Origin: a virus
Length of the DNA stretch: 30,353 nucleotides
IMG/VR virus record: IMGVR_UViG_3300030109_003830
Location: 1-30,353 of that record
Reading direction: 5' to 3' (one strand)
A program made the translations under genes and the position numbers. The notes under the pieces are model-generated. The model worked only from the letters and a program-made list of their open reading frames with translations, did no database searches and was not told the DNA's origin. This document shows positions 9,238 through 28,084 of the stretch, one piece after another (positions within the stretch are counted from its first letter, which is position 1; the number at the start of each line of letters is the position of its first letter).

Positions 9238-9578
9238 ATCAATTTATTTTTCATAATTAAATCAAAACCCTCTTTTCTCTCGGCTTCCGTTAAATTTTTA
9301 TCAACCATCACTCGAAATGCCGAACCAACAGAGTCATCACGCTTCAAAGACTTTTCCAACATTTCATCCCTAATATCGTCATACCAACTTCTCTCATCCG
9401 GTTGCGGGAGTTTGTAACATTCCACGCAACACATTCCGCCAGTTTTACTCCGGCCGAGAGATCGCATTGAGCCACAATATTTACAAGAAAGTGTTGGTGT
9501 AATGGCCTCTCCTCGCCAACCACACGATTTACACTGATTTGCTTTTATCAACATTCGATCGCAATCTGGGCAATTCAT
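9234..9578 (-). CDS. Zinc-ribbon protein with four CxxC motifs (114 aa)
   Basis: The first 54 residues hold four CxxC pairs: C3/C6, C16/C19, C32/C35 and C51/C54, with an extra C50. This gives two likely zinc ribbons. The rest is charged and helical (DDIRDEMLEKSLKRDD; EAERKEGFDLIM). It follows the O-like replication gene with an ATGA overlap. Zinc ribbons in this place may bind DNA, a helicase or polymerase; the exact role is unknown. The dense Cys spacing makes a chance frame very unlikely. Confidence 0.78.
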   Translation of the reverse strand: MNCPDCDRMLIKANQCKSCGWRGEAITPTLSCKYCGSMRSLGRSKTGGMCCVECYKLPQPDERSWYDDIRDEMLEKSLKRDDSVGSAFRVMVDKNLTEAERKEGFDLIMKNKLI

Positions 9579-10231
9579 TCACTTTCTCCTTTGGGAATAT
9601 CCCCCACATAATCGGAAAACTTTTGCTTGTTAAACAAAGTTGAAGGTTTGATAAATTTGGCCATCACTGGATCGTCTTTCCACTCCCGCCATTTTCTTGC
9701 GATAACCGCTCGACATTCATCTGGGGTAAATCCTTCCCGAAGTCGTGCCCGGATATTGATGTAAGCCCCCTCACCTCTGAAATCTTTCTGAGTTTTTTTA
9801 TTTAACCATTTGAGAATTTGTTGAGCTTCTTCATCATATTTTTTCTGGCTAACCCCACTATTGGTTATTTGATGGTTATATATATTGGTTATGGGCGCAG
9901 AGGTTTCGCCCCCTGATTGCTGATAATTGCGCCCCCCAATGCCATTCATTGCGCCCCGTGCAGAATTTGCGCCCCCCTCAATTTCATGTAATTTATAGAC
10001 TGAAGATTGATTTTTCCGCTCGAATATCTCCAGAAGACCTTTTCTAGCCAAACTACGGACAGCCATTTGCACACCTCGTCTAGAGCTGTCGGTACGGTTT
10101 GCGGTGTAATTGATGGAAGGGAAGCAAACACCTTCATCATTTGCTTGGTCGGCTAACGAAAGATAAACTAACTTTTCAGTTTTAGATAAGCCTTTCGTGT
10201 CCCAAGCGAAATTCATAAATCTAATACTCAA
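9575..10231 (-). CDS. Replication initiation protein, lambda O-like organisation
   Basis: Residues 10-83 form a winged-helix domain (GLSKTEKLVYLSLADQAND, then RRGVQMAVRSLARKGLLEI) as in phage replication proteins and HTH_36 proteins. A Gly/Asn/Ser-rich linker covers about 84-130. Residues 134-210 (QQILKWLNKKTQKDF, DECRAVIARKWREWKDD, FIKPSTLFNKQKFSDYV) match the conserved phage C-terminal domain Phg_2220_C. It should bind the origin and recruit host replication proteins. The start is TTG at 10231: AAGGAG lies five bases upstream, whereas the first ATG (10216) is about 20 bases away. Iterons lie in the linker-coding part of the gene, as with lambda ori inside O. It is first in the leftward early operon. 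Confidence 0.82.
   Translation of the reverse strand: MSIRFMNFAWDTKGLSKTEKLVYLSLADQANDEGVCFPSINYTANRTDSSRRGVQMAVRSLARKGLLEIFERKNQSSVYKLHEIEGGANSARGAMNGIGGRNYQQSGGETSAPITNIYNHQITNSGVSQKKYDEEAQQILKWLNKKTQKDFRGEGAYINIRARLREGFTPDECRAVIARKWREWKDDPVMAKFIKPSTLFNKQKFSDYVGDIPKGESE
9863..9975. other. Candidate replication origin: iterons and AT-rich element inside the O-like gene
   Basis: On the plus strand, TTGCGCCCC occurs three times (9927-9935, 9949-9957, 9967-9975), with a one-mismatch copy TTTCGCCCC at 9904-9912 and an inverted GGGCGCA at 9893-9899. Beside them is an AT-rich stretch (9861-9892) with three GGTTAT copies at 9863, 9874 and 9887. The G+C-rich iterons stand out from the AT-rich surroundings. 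The arrangement of initiator repeats next to an easily melted region, inside the linker codons of an initiator gene, is that of lambda ori. Confidence 0.6.
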
Positions 10232-10254
10232 AAGCTCTCCTTAAAGTTTCTAAA

Positions 10255-10323
10255 CAATAAACAATTGGTTACTCTCTCTAACCAAAACTATACTAATCCA
10301 TAATTTTAGTCAAATGTTTATTG
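10255..10323. promoter_or_regulatory. Immunity-region operator candidates
   Basis: CAATAAACA (10255-10263) and its exact inverse TGTTTATTG (10315-10323) flank the region. The second overlaps the -35 box of the rightward promoter and abuts the -35 box of the leftward one. Two tandem TAAACAA copies lie at 10251-10264. Between them, TTGGTTA (10265-10271) and TAACCAA (10279-10285) form a perfect inverted repeat with a seven-base spacer, near the predicted leftward start. These are candidate sites for the adjacent XRE-like protein and/or the PAS protein. Confidence 0.5.
10287..10313 (-). promoter_or_regulatory. Leftward early promoter candidate
   Basis: On the minus strand TTGACT (10313-10308) and TATAGT (10292-10287) are separated by 15 bases, slightly short for sigma70 but with good boxes. 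Transcription would start near 10280 and enter the O-like gene through a leader of about 50 bases with the AAGGAG ribosome binding site. It lies back to back with the rightward promoter. Confidence 0.5.
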
Positions 10324-10349
10324 ATTTTATTCATTAGAAAGATTATTTT
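10321..10349 (+). promoter_or_regulatory. Rightward promoter candidate for the repressor operon
   Basis: TTGATT (10321-10326) and TATTTT (10344-10349) are separated by exactly 17 bases, and a start near 10356 would give a leader of about 25 bases before the ATG at 10380. The 9-mer TGTTTATTG at 10315-10323 overlaps the -35 box, so autoregulation by a repressor is plausible. Confidence 0.5.
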
Positions 10350-10379
10350 GTTTTTTGGAGAGAACAACAGGGGGCTGCA

Positions 10380-10778
10380 ATGCCAAAACTTAATGTGCCA
10401 GCTTTAAAGAGATTGCTGGAAGAACGTCACGAAGGTGTGCGAGAAAGATTTTGTGAAGATTTTGGTTGCACTCGAAAGAGTTTACGCGATTGGATTAATG
10501 CACAAAAAGTAACAGATTCTAAAATGTTTGAATTGTGTGAGTATTTTGGGGTAAATGAATCGGTGTTAAACGCAGATTTGCAAAGTTTTGATAAAGACTT
10601 GTATTTTGAAATTTATGAAACTCTAAAGAAGAGAGCAACGGATAACAATGTCTCGATTCCTGAAGAATCACTAATTCATTGGACAAGTTTAAATTACCAA
10701 AATTATATTGCGTTAGGTCGAGTTGAAACGGACGCATTTGATTTGCTTTGTAAATCGATGGAGAAAAAAGATGAATAA
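10380..10778 (+). CDS. XRE/Cro-like helix-turn-helix protein, candidate lysogeny repressor
   Basis: The 132-residue protein has an N-terminal helix-turn-helix of Cro/C1 type: VRERFCEDFGCTRKSLRDWI followed by KVTDSKMFELCEYFGV, about residues 19-57. The C-terminal half (about 65-128) is helical and charged. No Ala-Gly cleavage site or LexA-like Ser/Lys protease domain is visible, so classical RecA-driven self-cleavage is not expected. It is transcribed away from the replication operon, with the operator-like repeats between. A G-rich ribosome binding site (AGGGGG) precedes the ATG. It overlaps the PAS gene by eight bases, so the two are co-translated. It could instead be a Cro-type regulator. 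Confidence 0.65.
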   Translation: MPKLNVPALKRLLEERHEGVRERFCEDFGCTRKSLRDWINAQKVTDSKMFELCEYFGVNESVLNADLQSFDKDLYFEIYETLKKRATDNNVSIPEESLIHWTSLNYQNYIALGRVETDAFDLLCKSMEKKDE

Positions 10779-11652
10779 TAATAAGGAATTTGTGGTCGAT
10801 GTAAATAACCCGCCTAGTATTTTAGTAAATAATTCGACTGGTTTGATTGTTGATGTAAATGATAGCTTTTGCGCTTTGACCAAATTTTCAAAAGATGAGC
10901 TTATCGGTCAACATCGACATAAATTAGTTTTATCCCATGGCGATTTTTATCAAGATTATTCTTACGTCAATATCCGCACTAAAAATAAAGAAATTTTACA
11001 GCTTAAGGTGAGACATAATTTTCCTGATTTAAATGTAAATGGTAATAAGATTGCTTGTGTTCAAAGTACTATTGTGCGGGTTAGAAAACTTAGAACGAAT
11101 CCTCAAGAAAATATAGAAAAATACTTCAGGTTTGTTAGCAATGGTAAATTTGACATTGTCACAGGCATTGGAGACTGCCACATTCTAGATAGACTACCTG
11201 TTGGAATTTCAATTTTACATGAAAGTATGAAATTTTTTGTCTATGTCAACTATTTCTACGCAAACCATTTGGGTTACGAATGCCATGAATTTCTTTCAGG
11301 AAAAATCAAACCAGAAGATTTGTGGGTAAATCACGTAAATTTGAATAAACAAATTATAGATATTTCTGATTATTTTGATCGCAAAACTTTTAAGCATGGG
11401 TATTATCATTATCGCCAATGGTTGCGGCGAGACGGGACAATTGCCGAAGGCCGTGTCCTTGCACATAAAATAAAGTTAAAAAAAGATGGTGAGGGTTACA
11501 TTCTAGCCGTGTGTGATTTTCGCAATGCCAATAAATATAGATTAAAACAAACTCCAACGGTTGCTAAAAAATTAGCAGAAAAATTAAATATTGATACGCA
11601 CCGAATCAACGAAGTTCTCTTCGAATTGTCTAAAGAAGGGTTTATTAAATAA
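10771..11652 (+). CDS. Double-PAS protein with C-terminal helix-turn-helix; candidate sensory regulator
   Basis: The 293-residue protein starts at ATG 10771, with GGAG seven bases upstream; a longer frame from 10723 would overlap the repressor gene further. PAS 1, about 14-104, has NDSFCALTKFSKDELIG and ends VQSTIVRVRK. PAS 2, about 141-252, has LPVGISIL, VNYFYANHLGYECHEFLSG, WLRRDGTIAEGRV and GYILAVCDFRN. Residues 262-293 (VAKKLAEKLNIDTHRINEVL, then ELSKEGFI) look like the recognition part of a winged helix. No kinase, cyclase or methyl-accepting domain and no membrane segment is seen. The ligand is unknown; the LOV flavin-binding NCRFL motif is absent. Operon with the XRE-like protein suggests a signal-dependent lysogeny switch, which is inference. 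Confidence 0.75.
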   Translation: MNNNKEFVVDVNNPPSILVNNSTGLIVDVNDSFCALTKFSKDELIGQHRHKLVLSHGDFYQDYSYVNIRTKNKEILQLKVRHNFPDLNVNGNKIACVQSTIVRVRKLRTNPQENIEKYFRFVSNGKFDIVTGIGDCHILDRLPVGISILHESMKFFVYVNYFYANHLGYECHEFLSGKIKPEDLWVNHVNLNKQIIDISDYFDRKTFKHGYYHYRQWLRRDGTIAEGRVLAHKIKLKKDGEGYILAVCDFRNANKYRLKQTPTVAKKLAEKLNIDTHRINEVLFELSKEGFIK

Positions 11653-11660
11653 ACTTTATT

Positions 11661-11704
11661 ACCTCATTTTTAGCTAAAATACGCTATATTTGAGGTTTTT
11701 TTTA
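11661..11704 (+). terminator. Intrinsic terminator after the PAS gene
   Basis: ACCTCA (11661-11666) pairs with TGAGGT (11691-11696), with further pairing inside (AGC / GCT) and two or three mismatches, followed by eight or more T. It begins nine bases after the PAS gene stop and separates the repressor operon from the recombination operon. Confidence 0.65.
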
Positions 11705-11720
11705 CTTTATTTAAGTTTAT

Positions 11721-11777
11721 CTATTGTAAACATTTATATATTATAATAATCTATTGTTACTAAAACGAAACAGGAGG
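11721..11777 (+). promoter_or_regulatory. Promoter/leader of the recombination-integration operon
   Basis: A consensus TATAAT lies at 11742-11747, but no good -35 box is placed 16-18 bases upstream; TTGTAA at 11724 is only 12 bases away, so activation may be needed. CTATTGT occurs twice in direct orientation (11721-11727 and 11751-11757), exactly 30 bases apart, flanking the -10 box. A perfect AGGAGG ribosome binding site (11772-11777) serves the next gene. Confidence 0.45.
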
Positions 11778-11782
11778 TTATT

Positions 11783-12235
11783 ATGTCGAAACAACTTGCC
11801 ACCACACATCTGAAACGTGCCGATGCAAAAGCTGACCTTAATGAAGATATTTACGACATTCTTCGATTTGATCCAGACTTTTGTTTAGACACCGCTACAA
11901 ACCAAAGAAAAACTCAGTTAGCGTTCCAAGCATGGTCGGCTGATCAAGTTTTTACTCAGTTAGAAGCAATTAATTGGTGGGACACCACCGGGGAAGACAA
12001 AGACAGCGTAAGATATTCAGATCATGCGATTACCCCTCTTTTAGCACAGTTATTAGTGACCGAGGGTAAAGATGATTTGTTAGTTGCAAAAATCAGAGAG
12101 GGTTTGAAGAAAAATATTATTGCTTTTTATGAAGTTGAATTAAAAAGACAAATTGAAGAAACCAGGGAACGCGTAGATCTTGAGGCCAACGAACCACCCT
12201 TTGAAGAAGATTACAAAGTAGGGGGTACGGCATGA
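11783..12235 (+). CDS. Hypothetical protein, first gene of the recombination operon (150 aa)
   Basis: I do not recognise it. The protein is acidic overall, with helices such as TLLAQLLVTEGKDDLLVAK-like sequence and a charged C-terminal coil (KRQIEETRERVDLEANE). It has no membrane segment or cofactor motif. Initiation should be strong (AGGAGG, five bases before ATG). The stop overlaps the ERF gene start (ATGA), tying its dose to the annealing protein. Genes in this place often encode recombination accessory proteins or inhibitors of host nucleases; nothing here decides it. Confidence 0.72.
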   Translation: MSKQLATTHLKRADAKADLNEDIYDILRFDPDFCLDTATNQRKTQLAFQAWSADQVFTQLEAINWWDTTGEDKDSVRYSDHAITPLLAQLLVTEGKDDLLVAKIREGLKKNIIAFYEVELKRQIEETRERVDLEANEPPFEEDYKVGGTA

Positions 12236-12837
12236 CGGCTAAAAAAGAGAAACCATCGTTAAATATTTATCAAAGAATAAATAAGATTATGGAGGAACTT
12301 AGTTACGTTCAAAAAGAAGATAAAAAAGTAAATGGTCAATACACATTTGTATCGCACGATGCGGTTGCTGCAAAGGTGCATCCTTTACTAGTTGAACATG
12401 GGGTAGTGATAATTCCAACGGTTGAAAAACATTTTATCGAAGGAAATCGAACTACTGCGATTGTAAAATTTAGCTTTATAAATATAGACGAACCCACCGA
12501 TCGCTTTGAAAGTTATTCAGTAGGTTTTGGGATAGACAATCAAGATAAAGGCATTGGCAAGGCTGTGAGCTATGCTAAAAAGTATGTATGCCTTCAAACC
12601 TTCATGCTTGAAACTGGAGACGACCCTGACCGCGACCTTATTGATTATGAACCTGAAACCATTAGCGAGGTTCAAGTCGCTGAAATCAAGCAATTGATAA
12701 ATGAAACTAACTCTGATGAAAAGCTTTTTTACAAACACTTTGAAATTGATGCTCTAGAGAACTTGCCTATTTGTTCATTTGACAAAGCTGTAAACAGTCT
12801 CAACACTAAAAAGGAGAGAGCTAATGCAAATACTTGA
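12232..12837 (+). CDS. erf: ERF-family single-strand annealing protein
   Basis: ERF proteins anneal complementary strands for phage recombination and genome circularisation. The 201-residue protein carries the family core: NIYQRINKIMEEL, NGQYTFVSHDAVAAKVHPLL, HGVVIIP, and GIDNQDKGIGKAVSYAKKY followed by LQTFMLETGDDPD. Length matches P22 Erf (about 200). The C-terminal 60 residues are a variable helical tail. It overlaps the preceding gene by ATGA and the exonuclease gene by 14 bases, so annealing protein and exonuclease are made together, as for lambda Bet/Exo-type pairs. Confidence 0.88.
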   Translation: MTAKKEKPSLNIYQRINKIMEELSYVQKEDKKVNGQYTFVSHDAVAAKVHPLLVEHGVVIIPTVEKHFIEGNRTTAIVKFSFINIDEPTDRFESYSVGFGIDNQDKGIGKAVSYAKKYVCLQTFMLETGDDPDRDLIDYEPETISEVQVAEIKQLINETNSDEKLFYKHFEIDALENLPICSFDKAVNSLNTKKERANANT

Positions 12838-13705
12838 TATTGAACCTAATACCACTGAACACTTTGATATTCGAAAAAACCATTTTTGTGCCTCAGAGGC
12901 TTCTGCGGTTATGAATCAAGGCAAGTTTGATCCAAAGAATCAGCTTGATTTAGCGGCAGTAAAAAAAGGCATAAAGAAAGTTAATGTATATCAACCAGCG
13001 GTTCAGCATGGCAACGATAATGAACCCTTTGTGCGAGAACGAGTAAATGAAATGTTATCTGATTTATTTCAGCCAAAAATTTGCGTGGAAGGAAAATATT
13101 TAGCCTCCCCTGATGGTTTAAATTTTAGCGGTAGCACTTACTTAGAAATCAAATGCCCCTTTTCACCTAACTCAGAAACAATTAAATCAGCAAAAAACAA
13201 TGAAATCGTAAATCATTATAAGTGGCAATTAGACCATGGTTTATACGTTACCGGAGCGGATAAAGCTGTATTTGCCGTTTTACATCCAGAAAGTAAAGAT
13301 ATTACTCTCATTGATTATTATCCTGATGAAGAACGACAAGCGCAGTTGATTGACGCTTGGGCAGATTTCGAAAAAATCATGAAAAGACCATCTGACGAAA
13401 TAGCTGATCTAACATCAACCACACCATCACCTAAATTCAACAATATGGTCGATGGATTGCTTGATTTATATAATCAGCGTGATTCGTTAACTGACGATAT
13501 TAAAATGCTTGAGCAACAACTTTTAAAAGAACATCAAGGCACGGCTTGGAAACACGATAAGATTTCAATAGTCCGTAAAAAAGCAACTTCAGGAAATCTT
13601 AAATACAAAGATATTTATGATCACGTGAAAGACAAGATTTCTATTAATTTAGAAGATTTTAGAAGTAAACCCACCAAAGAAAGTTTTTATATTAAAAGGA
13701 GATAA
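12824..13705 (+). CDS. YqaJ-type exonuclease (lambda Exo-like)
   Basis: It resects 5' ends of double-stranded DNA to give the annealing protein its substrate. The 293-residue protein starts with a DIRKNHFCASEASAVM segment and shows the PD-(D/E)XK active site: GNDNEPFVRE (E67), ASPDGL (D97) and YLEIKCPF (E108, K110), then HYKWQLDHGLYVTG. This is the YqaJ family pattern. The C-terminal 100 residues are helical (LYNQRDSLTDDIKMLEQQLL), giving a longer protein than lambda Exo (226). AGGAGAG precedes the ATG. Confidence 0.9.
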   Translation: MQILDIEPNTTEHFDIRKNHFCASEASAVMNQGKFDPKNQLDLAAVKKGIKKVNVYQPAVQHGNDNEPFVRERVNEMLSDLFQPKICVEGKYLASPDGLNFSGSTYLEIKCPFSPNSETIKSAKNNEIVNHYKWQLDHGLYVTGADKAVFAVLHPESKDITLIDYYPDEERQAQLIDAWADFEKIMKRPSDEIADLTSTTPSPKFNNMVDGLLDLYNQRDSLTDDIKMLEQQLLKEHQGTAWKHDKISIVRKKATSGNLKYKDIYDHVKDKISINLEDFRSKPTKESFYIKRR

Positions 13706-13706
13706 T

Positions 13707-14087
13707 ATGATTGATTACAGTGGAACAATTATAGAGATACCGGACATTAAAGTAGTTGGTAAAAACCGCGATTTTGAGATTCAAGAGCTTATCGTAGAAA
13801 TTGATGGTGACACCAAATATCCGCAAACGGTGAAATTTCAGATGGTGGGCAAAAACGCTAGAGCTTTAGCAGAATTAAACGCGCAAGTCGGCCAAGAAAT
13901 TGATTTTAGCTTTAATATTAAGGGGCGTGAATATAACGGCTCAGTTTACAATAATCTTGAAATTTGGAAGATTCAAACCCAATCAGATATTCCTCAAAAA
14001 TCACCATCGCAACAATTTGATGATAGAAACCCACCCCCAGCAAAAGATGGAGATTATGACTTTATTGATGACAATATACCGTTCTAG
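13707..14087 (+). CDS. SSB-like OB-fold protein, DUF3127 family
   Basis: The 126-residue protein opens with a beta-rich, OB-fold-like domain (YSGTIIEIPDIKVVGKNRDF; ELIVEIDGDTKYPQTVKFQM; GREYNGSVYNNLEIWKI), the DUF3127 pattern. A disordered Pro/Gln/Asp linker follows (about 97-116). It ends DFIDDNIPF, nearly the acidic Ile-Pro-Phe tip by which bacterial SSB docks partner proteins. It sits between exonuclease and excisionase, where phages often encode SSB. AAGGAG lies a few bases before the ATG. It most likely coats single strands made by the exonuclease. Confidence 0.82.
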   Translation: MIDYSGTIIEIPDIKVVGKNRDFEIQELIVEIDGDTKYPQTVKFQMVGKNARALAELNAQVGQEIDFSFNIKGREYNGSVYNNLEIWKIQTQSDIPQKSPSQQFDDRNPPPAKDGDYDFIDDNIPF

Positions 14088-14095
14088 GAGTAAAA

Positions 14096-14320
14096 ATGGA
14101 AAACACTAAATTACATATTGAAGGCAAAGATTATCTCACTGAAAAGGAGGCTGCACACTATTGTTGCGTTTCGCCAGTGCATTTTCGTAGAAATTACGAA
14201 AGGTATGGTATTTTACCCACAAGTTTTATGGGTAAGAAAGTGTATCGGCTAAGTGATTTAAGGAAAGCGATGGAGGGGTCATGGCAACATTATCGAAACA
14301 AGGCGGCAAATGGACAATAA
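14096..14320 (+). CDS. xis: Excisionase-like MerR/HTH_17 protein
   Basis: The 74-residue protein has the HTH_17 pattern: YLTEKEAAHYCCVSPVHFRR, ILPTSFMGKKVYRLSDLRKAM. Such small winged-helix proteins direct integrases toward excision. It lies immediately upstream of the integrase gene, and its last 40 bases overlap that gene in another frame. GGAG precedes the ATG. A purely regulatory role cannot be excluded, but size and place favour a recombination directionality factor. Confidence 0.75.
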   Translation: MENTKLHIEGKDYLTEKEAAHYCCVSPVHFRRNYERYGILPTSFMGKKVYRLSDLRKAMEGSWQHYRNKAANGQ

Positions 14321-15282
14321 GGTACCGGGAAAAAGGAGGCAAACAAAAAAGAAAGACGCTTTCTGGTTCCTTAAGTAAACGGGAAGCAAATTTAGTTCTC
14401 CAGCAATTTGAGCAAGAAAGAGCTAAACCTGTATTAAGCTCACCTTCTTTTGAAGATTATGTAAATCATGAGTATTTACTAGCTCACAAGATGCGAACTG
14501 AGTTACGAACCCACCAAAGAGTTATCGGGATTGTGCGAAAACATTTGATACCCGCCTTTGGGTATTTGCCTATGTCTTCTTTTGACCACAGGATATTAAA
14601 TCAATATTTTGTAAGAAGAAAAGAATTAGTTCGTTTTGGCACTTTAGAAAAAGAGCTAAACACAATCAAAGCTATTTTTGCAAAAGCATTTGAAGAAAAA
14701 GTAATTTTTGATAATCCAGTCAAAAGTTACTCTCTTGGCAAAAATACGGAAGATAAACCCCCGCCCTACTACAAAGCTGATGAAATAGATTATTTGTTTG
14801 CTAATTCAACCATGAAGGCAAGATGGCAGTTAGCAGTAAATACAGGTTTGCGTCGAGGCGAATTGCTACAACTAAAACATGATCATATTCAAGACGGATT
14901 TATTTATGTGGTATCAACAGAAGAAGCTCGAACAAAATCTGGGAAAAGTCGGCAGATACCCCTAAGCAATAAAGCAGCAGAAGCGATAGATGAATTAAGA
15001 TATGACGAAACTTGGGATAAGCACATGGATAAAAATTACGTTTTTCCTAGAATGCATCCAGCTAGTCTTACTAGAGCTTATCGCAATCATATTGAAAGGT
15101 TGCAGCTACCGGGTTCTTTGCACTGGCTGAGACATACTTTCTGCACATATCACGTACTAAATGGAACGCCGATTAGAGCTATTCAACTGTTAGCTGGCCA
15201 CTCAACCATAGCTGTGACTGAACGCTACACTCATGTCATAAATGAGTTAGAACAATATAAGGGAAATGTAAATGTTGGATAA
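14281..15282 (+). CDS. int: Tyrosine-family integrase
   Basis: It joins attP to a chromosomal attB. The 333-residue protein has an N-terminal arm-binding-like segment (GGKWTIRYREKGGKQKRKTL), a core-binding domain (about 55-150) and a catalytic domain with all expected residues: R191 in NTGLRRGEL, K222 in KSGKSRQIPL, H281 and R284 in HWLRHTF, H307 in GHS and Y316 in ERYTHV. It is therefore apparently active. The ATG at 14281 follows GGAGGGG closely and lies inside the xis gene. The stop lies five bases before the first repeat of attP. Confidence 0.93.
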   Translation: MATLSKQGGKWTIRYREKGGKQKRKTLSGSLSKREANLVLQQFEQERAKPVLSSPSFEDYVNHEYLLAHKMRTELRTHQRVIGIVRKHLIPAFGYLPMSSFDHRILNQYFVRRKELVRFGTLEKELNTIKAIFAKAFEEKVIFDNPVKSYSLGKNTEDKPPPYYKADEIDYLFANSTMKARWQLAVNTGLRRGELLQLKHDHIQDGFIYVVSTEEARTKSGKSRQIPLSNKAAEAIDELRYDETWDKHMDKNYVFPRMHPASLTRAYRNHIERLQLPGSLHWLRHTFCTYHVLNGTPIRAIQLLAGHSTIAVTERYTHVINELEQYKGNVNVG

Positions 15283-15286
15283 TTGT

Positions 15287-15511
15287 TTTAGGCACAATTT
15301 AGGCACATTTCAGACTACTCTATTATACGATATTTCATTTTTGTAAACTTATGTTTACTAAACGTACCCTCAGAGTATATCTAAGTGTTTGATTTTATTA
15401 TGAATAGTTTGCGTCCCCTAGGGGATTCGAACCCCTGTTGCCGCCGTGAAAGGGCGAAAAATTACTATTTTAATCAGAAACTTATATCCAATTTAGGCAC
15501 AAATTGTGCCT
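15287..15511. other. attP: Phage attachment site attP with arm-type repeats
   Basis: The core is the tRNA-Glu fragment at 15411-15456. TTTAGGCACA occurs at 15287-15296 and 15298-15307, exactly 11 bases apart, and again at 15492-15501 next to an inverted copy, together forming the palindrome AGGCACAAATTGTGCCT (15495-15511). These flank the core on both sides, as arm-type integrase sites do. GTAAAC-TTAT-GTTTAC at 15343-15358 is a further inverted repeat. The 248 bases between integrase and the 118-residue gene hold no other convincing gene. Because phage genes lie on both sides, the site is intact and the genome not integrated. Confidence 0.78.
15411..15456 (-). other. attP core: 3' part of a tRNA-Glu(UUC) gene (not a functional tRNA)
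   Basis: Read on the minus strand, the 46 bases give the anticodon loop CUUUCAC (anticodon UUC), the 3' stem GGCGG, the T arm AGGGGTTCGAATCCCCT and the acceptor strand AGGGGAC plus discriminator G and one C. The D arm, 5' acceptor strand and most of CCA are missing. It is nearly identical to that part of Escherichia coli tRNA-Glu as I remember it. On integration it would restore the 3' end of the host gene. Confidence 0.85.
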
Positions 15512-25426: not shown

Positions 25427-26076
25427 TATGGATTTGCACTGTCTGTCTTAATACCTACGCTACCTTGGCTTGTTCGAGGTAGTCGATAGGATTCTGAAGC
25501 TGACCATACAACTTGCTTGTATTGATCTAAGTAACTTTGTGCCGATTGAAAATCTTGAAGAAATCTATAAGCATGGTAAAGGCTCGCAGTCAAATAAGCA
25601 TCGGGATAATTCTCAATGATCCAATTAGTTGTATTAGAATCTGACAGTCCTGTTACCATCGGGTAATAGGATAATTCATAGGCATAATTGGAATCTGGTG
25701 CAACCTCAAACTCTATTACGTCGCTTATAGTAAAAAATGCTGGTTTACCGCTGCCACTACGATGATTTAAACTTAGTTGATTTGGTGCTAAAAAACGAAG
25801 CGTTGTAAATGTATCAGCGGTTAAGGTAAATCGGTATATCTCTTGAAAGTCTGTTGGTAAAGCTAAGGTAGCTGTACCCGCCACTAACGTTCCTGTTTTT
25901 CTTTGAATATCACCGCGAATACCACCAATTTCAGGTGCCTCAACTGGCACAGGTACACGTTTCAAATATCTCTCCGCTAGATCAATGAAATCGTTTAAAT
26001 TAGACGTAGTGAAATCTGACCTTGCTGTCCAGTTTGATATTGCATTTTTTAAGTCGCTGTAGTTCGCGATTGCCAT
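25426..26076 (-). CDS. Head-tail adaptor protein (P22 gp4 position)
   Basis: The 216-residue protein starts YSDLKNAISNWTARSDFTTS with LNDFIDLAERYLKR, then a beta-rich part (ATLALPTDFQEIYRF; YELSYYPMVTGLSD) and a helical end (PDAYLTASLYHAYRFLQD). This 'Y.DL...I..W..R.D....IP.FI.LAE..L.R...LP.D' pattern is common in aquatic podoviruses and placed between capsid and gp10-like genes. It should form the ring between portal and connector. The first 28 bases overlap the glycosyltransferase gene. Confidence 0.72.
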   Translation of the reverse strand: MAIANYSDLKNAISNWTARSDFTTSNLNDFIDLAERYLKRVPVPVEAPEIGGIRGDIQRKTGTLVAGTATLALPTDFQEIYRFTLTADTFTTLRFLAPNQLSLNHRSGSGKPAFFTISDVIEFEVAPDSNYAYELSYYPMVTGLSDSNTTNWIIENYPDAYLTASLYHAYRFLQDFQSAQSYLDQYKQVVWSASESYRLPRTSQGSVGIKTDSANP

Positions 26077-26732
26077 AATTCTTTCCGTTTATTCAAATTA
26101 TTTATAACCATTTTTGCGTGAACAGAGTCACCCATCATTTCTAACCAACTTACATTGCCTATCATTGATTCATACTCATTCCACCATTCTTTTGCATAAT
26201 CACAATCCCTGGTTTCAGGAAAATGTGGGATACCAGCGGTGTAATGAACAATTGAAGCTGGCTCAGTAGGTTCGTCATAGCCCACACAATAATTAAATTT
26301 TTGTGGTATATCACCTATAGATTCAGCCCAGTCAAAATTCTGCGGAGTGTTTGACTCATCGTTTATATAATCTGCTGTCAGCTTTTTACATAAACTATTA
26401 TTGAAAACCATTAAGGATGCCCATTCAAATTTATGAATGCTTTTTCTCACAGAAACAGCACAGTCATCTTTTACAAATTCTTTTAACTTGTGTATATCAT
26501 CAAGCACTAACATGTCAGCGTCCATAAACACTGACACACCTTGATAGCCGCATAACGCTGGAGCTAGATAACGACTAAAAGTAAAGTCTGTTAGACCTAC
26601 TCTTTTAATTGGTAACTGAAATAAAACTAATGGAATTATGCTTACAGGTTTACTTGCTCTTCTTGTAATAGACCATTGCAAGACGTTGTAGGCAATAGGT
26701 TGTCTGGGGTCAACTCCAATATAGATTCGCAT
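26049..26732 (-). CDS. Glycosyltransferase, GT8-like (GT-A fold)
   Basis: The 227-residue protein opens with MRIYIGVDPRQPIAYNVL, then FSRYLAPALCGYQG, then VFMDADMLVLDDI with the metal-binding D-A-D at 71-73, a block with SLMVFNN, and VHYTAGIPHF near the end. This is the layout of retaining GT-A transferases related to family 8, which transfer a sugar from a nucleotide donor. A strong AAAGGAG precedes the ATG, which lies 91 bases inside the upstream gene. It is cytoplasmic (no signal or membrane segment). Acceptor unknown: a virion protein is favoured by its place in the head-tail operon, host surface sugars are the alternative. Confidence 0.82.
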   Translation of the reverse strand: MRIYIGVDPRQPIAYNVLQWSITRRASKPVSIIPLVLFQLPIKRVGLTDFTFSRYLAPALCGYQGVSVFMDADMLVLDDIHKLKEFVKDDCAVSVRKSIHKFEWASLMVFNNSLCKKLTADYINDESNTPQNFDWAESIGDIPQKFNYCVGYDEPTEPASIVHYTAGIPHFPETRDCDYAKEWWNEYESMIGNVSWLEMMGDSVHAKMVINNLNKRKELWQSRTTAT

Positions 26733-28084
26733 GATTTCTCCTTTAAATATCTCTCTACTTTTCTCACTGTTATTTGAACTGCTTTTTGTACTCCTAGATC
26801 TTGCCGTCTAATAAACTCTACACTTTTCCAATAGGGGCTTTGGCCGTACAAACCTTCATGCCAATGGGGAGTAGAATGAACAATCACAAATGCTTTTTTA
26901 TTTATTGCGCCAGCTAAATGATAAACAGTCGTTGGAACAGTAACGATAGCATCTAAATTTTGCACAAGAGCTGCTACATCTTCTAAGTCTTTACTTTGTG
27001 TACCAAAAGGAAAACGATGAATTTTTATACCCGATTGCTGATAAAACTCATTCACATCGGATTCATCATCACGATATTGGAGAGAAATGAACGAGCAGTC
27101 TAAAGAGAATAAAGGAGAGAGTTCTTTGAGACTGAGAGCGCGAGTTTTCCATCCATCGCTTCCTAACCTACCACCTGACCAAGCAATGCCAATCTTAGGT
27201 TTATCTCCTAACGATTGCATCAACCCTTTCCACATCTCGGTTTTGTCAGGATTTACTTTTAAATAACCATTACGCCGTTTAATTTCTGCCCATTGCATCA
27301 TGGTAGCCATAGAGCTTTGGTGCGTTGAAATAACTGGCTCTTTAAATTCTTTGGCGTATTGTGAAGGATAAACTTTTGAATTAGGAAAAGAACGCTCAAA
27401 CAAAGATTTTAGCTTTGGCTCACAAGTAATTTGCGTTGGTTCAACCGGGCAACAACTCATAAGTGCAATCTGATCACCTAATCCTTGCTCACCATACACA
27501 AATAACCTAACATCATTCTGCCCTTCCCACTCTGGGATGCCATAATCATGTTTTCTGCGGAAGGGTTGGCTTCCTAAACCATATTTATAATGATAAAACC
27601 CTTCTTTCCATTGTCGTTTATGAAATTTTGCATAAGCGTAGGTGGTATGAGCTTGATGATGCGATTCTATCTCTAAAGACAACTTTGAATAATTTTCAGC
27701 ACCAGTGAAATCATAATTTAGAACACAAGCATTTCCTAATAATCGATACATAGTAGCCATGTGCTGTTTAGCAGCCACTTTAGGAAATAAAGCCATTGCT
27801 TCTTTCAATGTTTGCACAGCTTTTTTTGGCTCTTGTAAGTGTTGCTCTACCGCACCTAACATCATTAAAGTGCGCCACGATCTTTGACTGCGTACAACTT
27901 CCATAGCAATAGGGTAAGCAAACGCGGGTTTACCTGAATCAATCAACAAACGACACAGTAACAACTTTGCTTCAAAGTCATCAGGCTTTTCTGACATGAT
28001 TTCTAACAATATCGTACTAGCAAATTCAAATTGACCAGTGCTAATAGCATGACAACAATCGCGATAAAGATTAGAATTAGACAC
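26642..28084 (-). CDS. TPR protein with GT-B glycosyltransferase domain
   Basis: Residues 1-160 are TPR-like helical repeats (MMLGAVEQHLQEPKKAVQTL; RLLGNACVLNYDFTGAENYS). From about 190, VYGEQGLGDQIALMS starts a GT-B half; KIGIAWSGG at 297-305, RALSLKELSPL, and DLEDVAALVQNLDAIVTVPT with VYHLAGAINKKAF (about 366-399) form the nucleotide-sugar half. This resembles O-GlcNAc transferase/heptosyltransferase-like proteins. TPRs often select protein acceptors. The start is GTG at 28084 with CAGGG before it, eight bases inside the upstream gene. The end overlaps the second glycosyltransferase by 91 bases. Confidence 0.8.
   Translation of the reverse strand: MSNSNLYRDCCHAISTGQFEFASTILLEIMSEKPDDFEAKLLLCRLLIDSGKPAFAYPIAMEVVRSQRSWRTLMMLGAVEQHLQEPKKAVQTLKEAMALFPKVAAKQHMATMYRLLGNACVLNYDFTGAENYSKLSLEIESHHQAHTTYAYAKFHKRQWKEGFYHYKYGLGSQPFRRKHDYGIPEWEGQNDVRLFVYGEQGLGDQIALMSCCPVEPTQITCEPKLKSLFERSFPNSKVYPSQYAKEFKEPVISTHQSSMATMMQWAEIKRRNGYLKVNPDKTEMWKGLMQSLGDKPKIGIAWSGGRLGSDGWKTRALSLKELSPLFSLDCSFISLQYRDDESDVNEFYQQSGIKIHRFPFGTQSKDLEDVAALVQNLDAIVTVPTTVYHLAGAINKKAFVIVHSTPHWHEGLYGQSPYWKSVEFIRRQDLGVQKAVQITVRKVERYLKEKSCESILELTPDNLLPTTSCNGLLQEEQVNL

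Follow-up and report, generated by a model that had tools for sequence, protein, structure and literature searches.

An uncultured integrating phage carries a candidate repressor gene overlapped by the gene of a PAS-domain protein, a possible cytoplasmic sensor

In phage lambda, the CI repressor has a self-cleaving C-terminal domain, and RexA and RexB are exclusion proteins and not PAS proteins. In the ImmR–ImmA system of ICEBs1 and related phages, ImmA is a metallopeptidase. What leads a temperate phage to induction when its repressor is not cleavable through RecA is, to our knowledge, mostly unexplained, above all for uncultured ones. VqmA of Vibrio phage VP882 is a receptor for DPO that consists of a PAS and a LuxR-HTH domain and triggers lysis, acting through the antirepressor Qtip (PMC12802170, PMC8284805). 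In the Aeromonas phages ARM81ld and Apop, XRE-LuxR operons with a smORF control induction without SOS; CI is a separate protein there, the modules being additional regulators that work through the small ORF, and the sensor is an acyl-homoserine-lactone LuxR protein (PMC10432266). Within the open-access literature, our search for PAS domains in phage decision systems found the VqmA work alone to be relevant. To call a switch of the kind described below unlike anything known would be too strong, as VqmA is already PAS-based and lysis-triggering (PMC12802170, PMC8284805).

The stretch of DNA analysed here (30,353 bp, hereafter the window) is most of the 31,924-bp IMG/VR virus record IMGVR_UViG_3300030109_003830. 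Its nearest isolate relatives by TerL are Pelagibacter, Methylophilales and Rhodoferax phages, at identities of at most 48%, and it comes from an uncultured virus of bacteria that is probably marine. The gene order is lambda-like across the window (Table 1). On the minus strand, an O-like initiator, a zinc-ribbon-like ORF, a 105-aa ORF, NinG and Q run leftward, whereas on the plus strand the repressor and PAS genes run rightward, followed by a hairpin, a 150-aa ORF, Erf, YqaJ, an SSB-like gene, an Xis-like gene, the integrase and attP. Because this order is accompanied by an integrase and a tRNA-Glu attP, we conclude that this is an integrating temperate phage. At the attP site, the 5′ half has no tRNA likeness, and a search for the host attB gave no match in 563 genomes, with a poorly chosen 50-nt pattern that included four extra phage bases.

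Table 1. Features of the window discussed in the text, with coordinates, strand and supporting evidence
Feature	Coordinates	Strand	Evidence
O-like replication initiator; first gene left of the switch (lambda pR-side operon)	9575..10231	-	Phg_2220_C 1.1e-19, HTH_36 1.5e-10, phrog_428 1.7e-35
Switch region between O and repressor	10232..10379	.	Perfect palindrome and overlapping promoter-like hexamers, from sequence
132-aa CI/XRE-type repressor candidate	10380..10778	+	ATG start; phrog_2967 2.8e-5; G007 homologue
293-aa soluble protein: PAS1 (~14-104), PAS2 (~137-252), C-terminal HTH-like helices (~253-288)	10771..11652	+	Pfam, NCBIfam, AlphaFold, Foldseek, phmmer
Intrinsic-terminator-like hairpin with T8 tail, closing the repressor–PAS operon	11661..11704	+	MFE -12.7 kcal/mol, z -5.5, 0/200 shuffles
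150-aa ORF opening the recombination operon (lambda pL side)	11783..12235	+	ORF; positional counterparts in G001 (L085) and G007 (L084)
Erf single-strand annealing protein	12232..12837	+	ERF 1.1e-21
YqaJ/RecE-like exonuclease	12824..13705	+	YqaJ 1.1e-13; phrog_7655 3.3e-26
DUF3127 protein; SSB-like judged by position	13707..14087	+	DUF3127 1.3e-17
Xis/AlpA-like small protein	14096..14320	+	Position and sequence; without Pfam match
Tyrosine integrase	14281..15282	+	Phage_integrase 4.4e-24
attP core, 46 nt from tRNA-Glu 3′ end	15411..15456	-	ARAGORN; 97.8% to enterobacterial tRNA-Glu across 46 nt

The candidate repressor taken by itself scores below the Pfam threshold for HTH_3 (0.076) and matches phrog_2967 weakly (2.8e-5). 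Its 129-aa homologue in a related phage, G007, reaches 1.2e-4 with the same model (22.5 bits, against a curated cut-off of 23), and the two proteins, at 31% identity, align end to end (phmmer 3.3e-17); it is through this homologue and the full-length homology that the window protein is assigned a Cro/CI-type N-terminal HTH. Pfam finds no Peptidase S24 or other self-cleavage domain in either protein, in agreement with the prediction of an XRE-like protein that lacks one. Because the repressor has no S24 domain, another route to induction is needed. HTH_3 identifies no other regulator in the record, although the same model also misses the window repressor.

The best start for the PAS gene is the ATG at 10771; a longer ORF from a TTG at 10723 appeared in the mechanical listing and was set aside in its favor. 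The predicted overlap of eight bases with the repressor gene is exact (10771-10778), with GGAG 7 nt 5′ of the ATG, and the two genes are very probably cotranscribed. The locus resembles lambda cI-rexA-rexB in its repressor, its cotranscribed downstream gene and its same-strand recombination operon, xis, int and attP, but a PAS gene fills the rexAB slot and the repressor lacks the self-cleaving domain. As in ImmR–ImmA, the repressor and its would-be controller are encoded in one operon, but the PAS protein matches no peptidase family. The ARM81ld and Apop operons are nearest in layout, pairing an XRE DNA-binding protein with a ligand-sensing HTH protein; here, in contrast, the XRE protein is the sole repressor candidate noticed, and the sensor would be a PAS protein. 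VqmA and the window protein are both cytoplasmic PAS proteins encoded by phages; VqmA ends in an HTH, the window protein in a possible, marginal one, and the SOS-independent tie of VqmA to the lysis-lysogeny decision is predicted in our case. VP882 VqmA has one PAS_4 domain and a GerE domain (7.9e-11, Pfam), and its gene lies ~4-5 kb from an annotated HTH and Peptidase_S24 repressor-like gene. By contrast, the window protein has two PAS domains and a marginal, truncated HTH, its gene overlaps that of the repressor, and neither an S24 domain nor an obvious counterpart of Qtip is present. No BLASTP similarity links the two proteins (E 12 and 3.0), and the window protein has no GerE match.

Both of the PAS domains that had been predicted are supported, by different kinds of evidence. 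PAS1 exceeds the Pfam cut-offs for PAS (1e-6) and PAS_9 (1.1e-6), and NCBIfam sensory_box matches the protein (8.4e-8) in two stretches. PAS2 is too divergent for detection by Pfam but matches the G007 partner, a single-PAS protein that Pfam recognizes (PAS 4.8e-8), with 26% of 126 aligned positions identical (phmmer 1.7e-5); none of the generic PAS domains among 9,943 ORFs scored near this match. In an AlphaFold model of residues 130-293, PAS2 has a pLDDT mostly of ~75-93, with a poor stretch at mid-domain (~47-50), and its best PDB matches in Foldseek are all PAS domains (LOV, FixL, DosP, NifL), with E values from 1.5e-6. Part of the underlying alignment consisted of PAS sequences of other loci, truncated ahead of the last strand, so that the model was partly guided by the assumption of a PAS fold; an earlier model from a two-row alignment (pLDDT 34) was discarded. 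Taken with the homology to a recognized PAS domain, the model and its Foldseek matches argue for a PAS fold in PAS2.

We propose that a single lysogeny operon would comprise the repressor and PAS genes, with transcription running from the switch (10.23-10.38 kb) to the terminator (11.66-11.70 kb). The repressor would keep both early operons shut, and translational coupling would cause the PAS protein to be made in step with it. PAS2, the part conserved between phages, would bind a cytoplasmic ligand, cofactor or partner, and the PAS protein would alter how firmly the repressor holds the switch, through direct contact between the two proteins or, in this phage, helped by the possible C-terminal HTH. 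Induction or establishment would in this way receive an input that bypasses CI self-cleavage. We give about an even chance to the reading that the PAS protein is a cytoplasmic sensor made together with the repressor and tuning it, in which we infer that it modulates the repressor, that it binds a signal, and which way it acts. The pair kept in the diverged G007, the 8-bp overlap with its Shine-Dalgarno sequence and the terminator (z -5.5) speak for a sensor; against it stand the small number of pairs (n = 2), the absence of the overlap in G007, the lack of conservation of PAS1 and of the output domain first predicted, the failure to assign a ligand residue, operator candidates without statistical significance, and a gene position that is the classical one for rex-like accessory genes.

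The distribution of the pair among relatives bears on this reading. A TerL scan of viral contigs gave 80 related loci, and among 45 larger related records searched, a PAS domain occurs in G007 only. G007 is temperate (TerL 70% identical to that of the window phage), has a different integrase, and carries the repressor–PAS pair in the same order and place, followed by a 130-aa ORF, Erf, YqaJ, SSB and the integrase; its two genes do not overlap, with a 26-nt gap from stop to ATG. The original prediction had staked itself on the pair recurring in a related phage, and here it held. Pfam detects an integrase in 3 of 40 lineage records (the window phage, G007 and G009), and both of those with an identified switch region, the window phage and G007, have the pair; G009 is uninformative, its switch region not having been identified in its record. 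The near-sister G001 (TerL 95%, NinG 76% identical) is a 17.7-kb fragment without repressor, PAS gene or integrase across a contiguous stretch from O to the virion genes, in which O and the 150-aa ORF, Erf, YqaJ, SSB and Xis-like genes are present. Because its O protein is only 34% identical to that of the window phage, the switch region was swapped as a module and not cleanly deleted, a point that we counted against the sensor reading. G001 may represent a natural change to a presumably virulent life by module exchange. An ORF of 105 aa and no known function lies at its switch (L085, G001:C1:11500-17740). The presence of the pair in G007, together with the absence of repressor, PAS gene and integrase from G001, indicates that the PAS gene travels with the lysogeny genes and not with the phage backbone.

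Wider searches returned no further pairs. Neither gene has relatives in the phages collection, and none came up when viral and genome contigs were scanned with single-protein patterns, a method limited to close relatives. A profile (A1) had no match in 369 gammaproteobacterial genomes, and of 80 loci from a TerL scan of genome contigs, none has the pair within 10 kb. Two extra matches in scans with the G007 repressor were chance matches inside a large phage protein, a weak PAS match in Desulfatibacillum (L110) belongs to a 694-aa PAS ORF of another family, and a match in L101 to an unrelated, 673-aa multi-PAS protein of another virus.

The main rival, which we consider unlikely, makes the PAS gene a passenger of the rex type. 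It would owe its expression to its position downstream of the repressor and would act on the host or on superinfecting phages (in exclusion or host regulation) and not on the switch. The gene does fill the cI-rexAB slot exactly, with the repressor on one side and the terminator and recombination operon on the other, and a C-terminal HTH could act on host promoters. However, the protein has no match in the PADLOC defense library, and a PAS partner has been kept although the repressors of the two phages are just 31% identical. Passenger genes in the cI-rexAB slot are usually swapped between relatives, which we counted against this explanation.

A PAS sensor might reach the switch by binding DNA itself or by working on the repressor. 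The predicted winged-helix-like end survives in part: residues 258-293 match TrmB (0.0036 with the full protein, 0.0017 with the fragment), the F-93, z-alpha and MarR models match more weakly in the same register, and AlphaFold models the tail as three helices of low pLDDT, but no match reaches its cut-off, and the chain stops at the point where a wing should start, leaving no room for one. A DNA-binding HTH at this end is possible on the basis of these matches and the model. The G007 partner has no recognizable HTH and no recognizable PAS1. Thus, of the predicted path from PAS signal through a DNA-binding end to operators, the overlapping repressor–PAS pair in an integrating phage stands, and recurs in diverged G007, whereas the DNA-binding step is marginal here and missing there. 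What the two pairs have in common is the repressor and PAS2, and not PAS1, the HTH-like tail or the 8-bp overlap; on two examples, this tentatively favors a sensor acting on the repressor over one with its own DNA binding.

In the switch region, a perfect palindrome with 7-bp arms (TTGGTTA-CTCTCTC-TAACCAA, 10265-10285) is a candidate operator only. Words common to both control regions were within chance expectation (shuffles, p 0.45), and shared operators were rejected. The 30.8 kb of G007 contain just two copies of the 9-mer GATCAAGTA (L084:8929-8937 and 10131-10139), one in each control region flanking the pair; with a shuffle p of 0.13, it is suggestive as an operator word. G007 also has a 69-aa Cro/YdaS-like gene divergent from its repressor (L083:2555-2764); nothing of this kind lies between repressor and O in the window phage.

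These regions also bear on the idea that the XRE and PAS proteins are a co-dependent pair of transcription factors, like those of the ARM81ld and Apop XRE-LuxR operons, both needed to activate a target promoter, with the XRE protein not the main repressor. Those operons likewise combine an XRE protein with an HTH protein that senses a ligand (PMC10432266), and the XRE protein here, besides its small size, has no C-terminal domain of the CI type. We nevertheless regard this idea as improbable, with no other repressor candidate noticed (a weak point, given what HTH_3 misses), no counter-oriented small ORF evident when 10232-10379 and 11653-11782 were read (with ORFs of 40 aa and more in the list), and a G007 partner that has no recognizable HTH.

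The nature of the signal can be narrowed by reading the PAS domains. Both lack the NCRFLQ-type cysteine of LOV domains, and we rejected LOV light sensing on this basis. The best PDB match of PAS1 is the FAD-binding MmoS (3ewk, 3.5e-6), over 41 residues only; this match misses the Trp/Asn part, and PAS1 has neither a Trp nor the W.G..N signature of FAD-type PAS domains, so an FAD-type PAS was likewise rejected. No ligand-assigning residues could be named by sequence in the PAS protein. A ligand-free dimerization or adaptor partner (a co-repressor or stabilizer) for a repressor without its own oligomerization domain would fit this lack of a signature, the mere ~65 residues after the repressor HTH and the frequent dimerization of PAS domains, as in VqmA (PMC8284805), but it is quite improbable given that the C-terminal part of the repressor is itself conserved in G007 (repC 2.6e-4) and that a tandem PAS pair exceeds an adaptor's needs.

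Returning to the sensor reading, we tentatively suggest, at somewhat less than an even chance, a class of lysogeny switch not described before, in which a small non-cleavable repressor has a dedicated soluble PAS sensor as operon partner. In these integrating, probably marine phages, lysogeny or induction would then depend on a cytoplasmic small molecule or redox state instead of on damaged DNA or a peptide that the phage makes. If so, having a PAS partner within the repressor operon would place induction under the direct influence of host metabolism, these viruses may choose between dormancy and killing by reading an intracellular chemical signal, and PAS-based phage switches would have a second origin, unrelated to VqmA. 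The pair is a two-gene unit for which a laboratory reporter strain would suffice as a test system, with no need of the native host.

Three further observations concern other loci. The 673-aa protein of L101 (L101:3905-5926, on the 49.7-kb viral contig IMGVR_UViG_3300015024_000008) has about five PAS domains; a 210-aa protein of GAF-like appearance comes before it. In the structural gene block of the window (26049-28084), overlapping genes encode a TPR/glycosyltransferase-9-like protein and a second, possibly glycosyltransferase-like protein. Between 15300 and 15530, several GTGCCTAAA-like repeats flank the tRNA-Glu attP core on both sides and are probably integrase arm sites.
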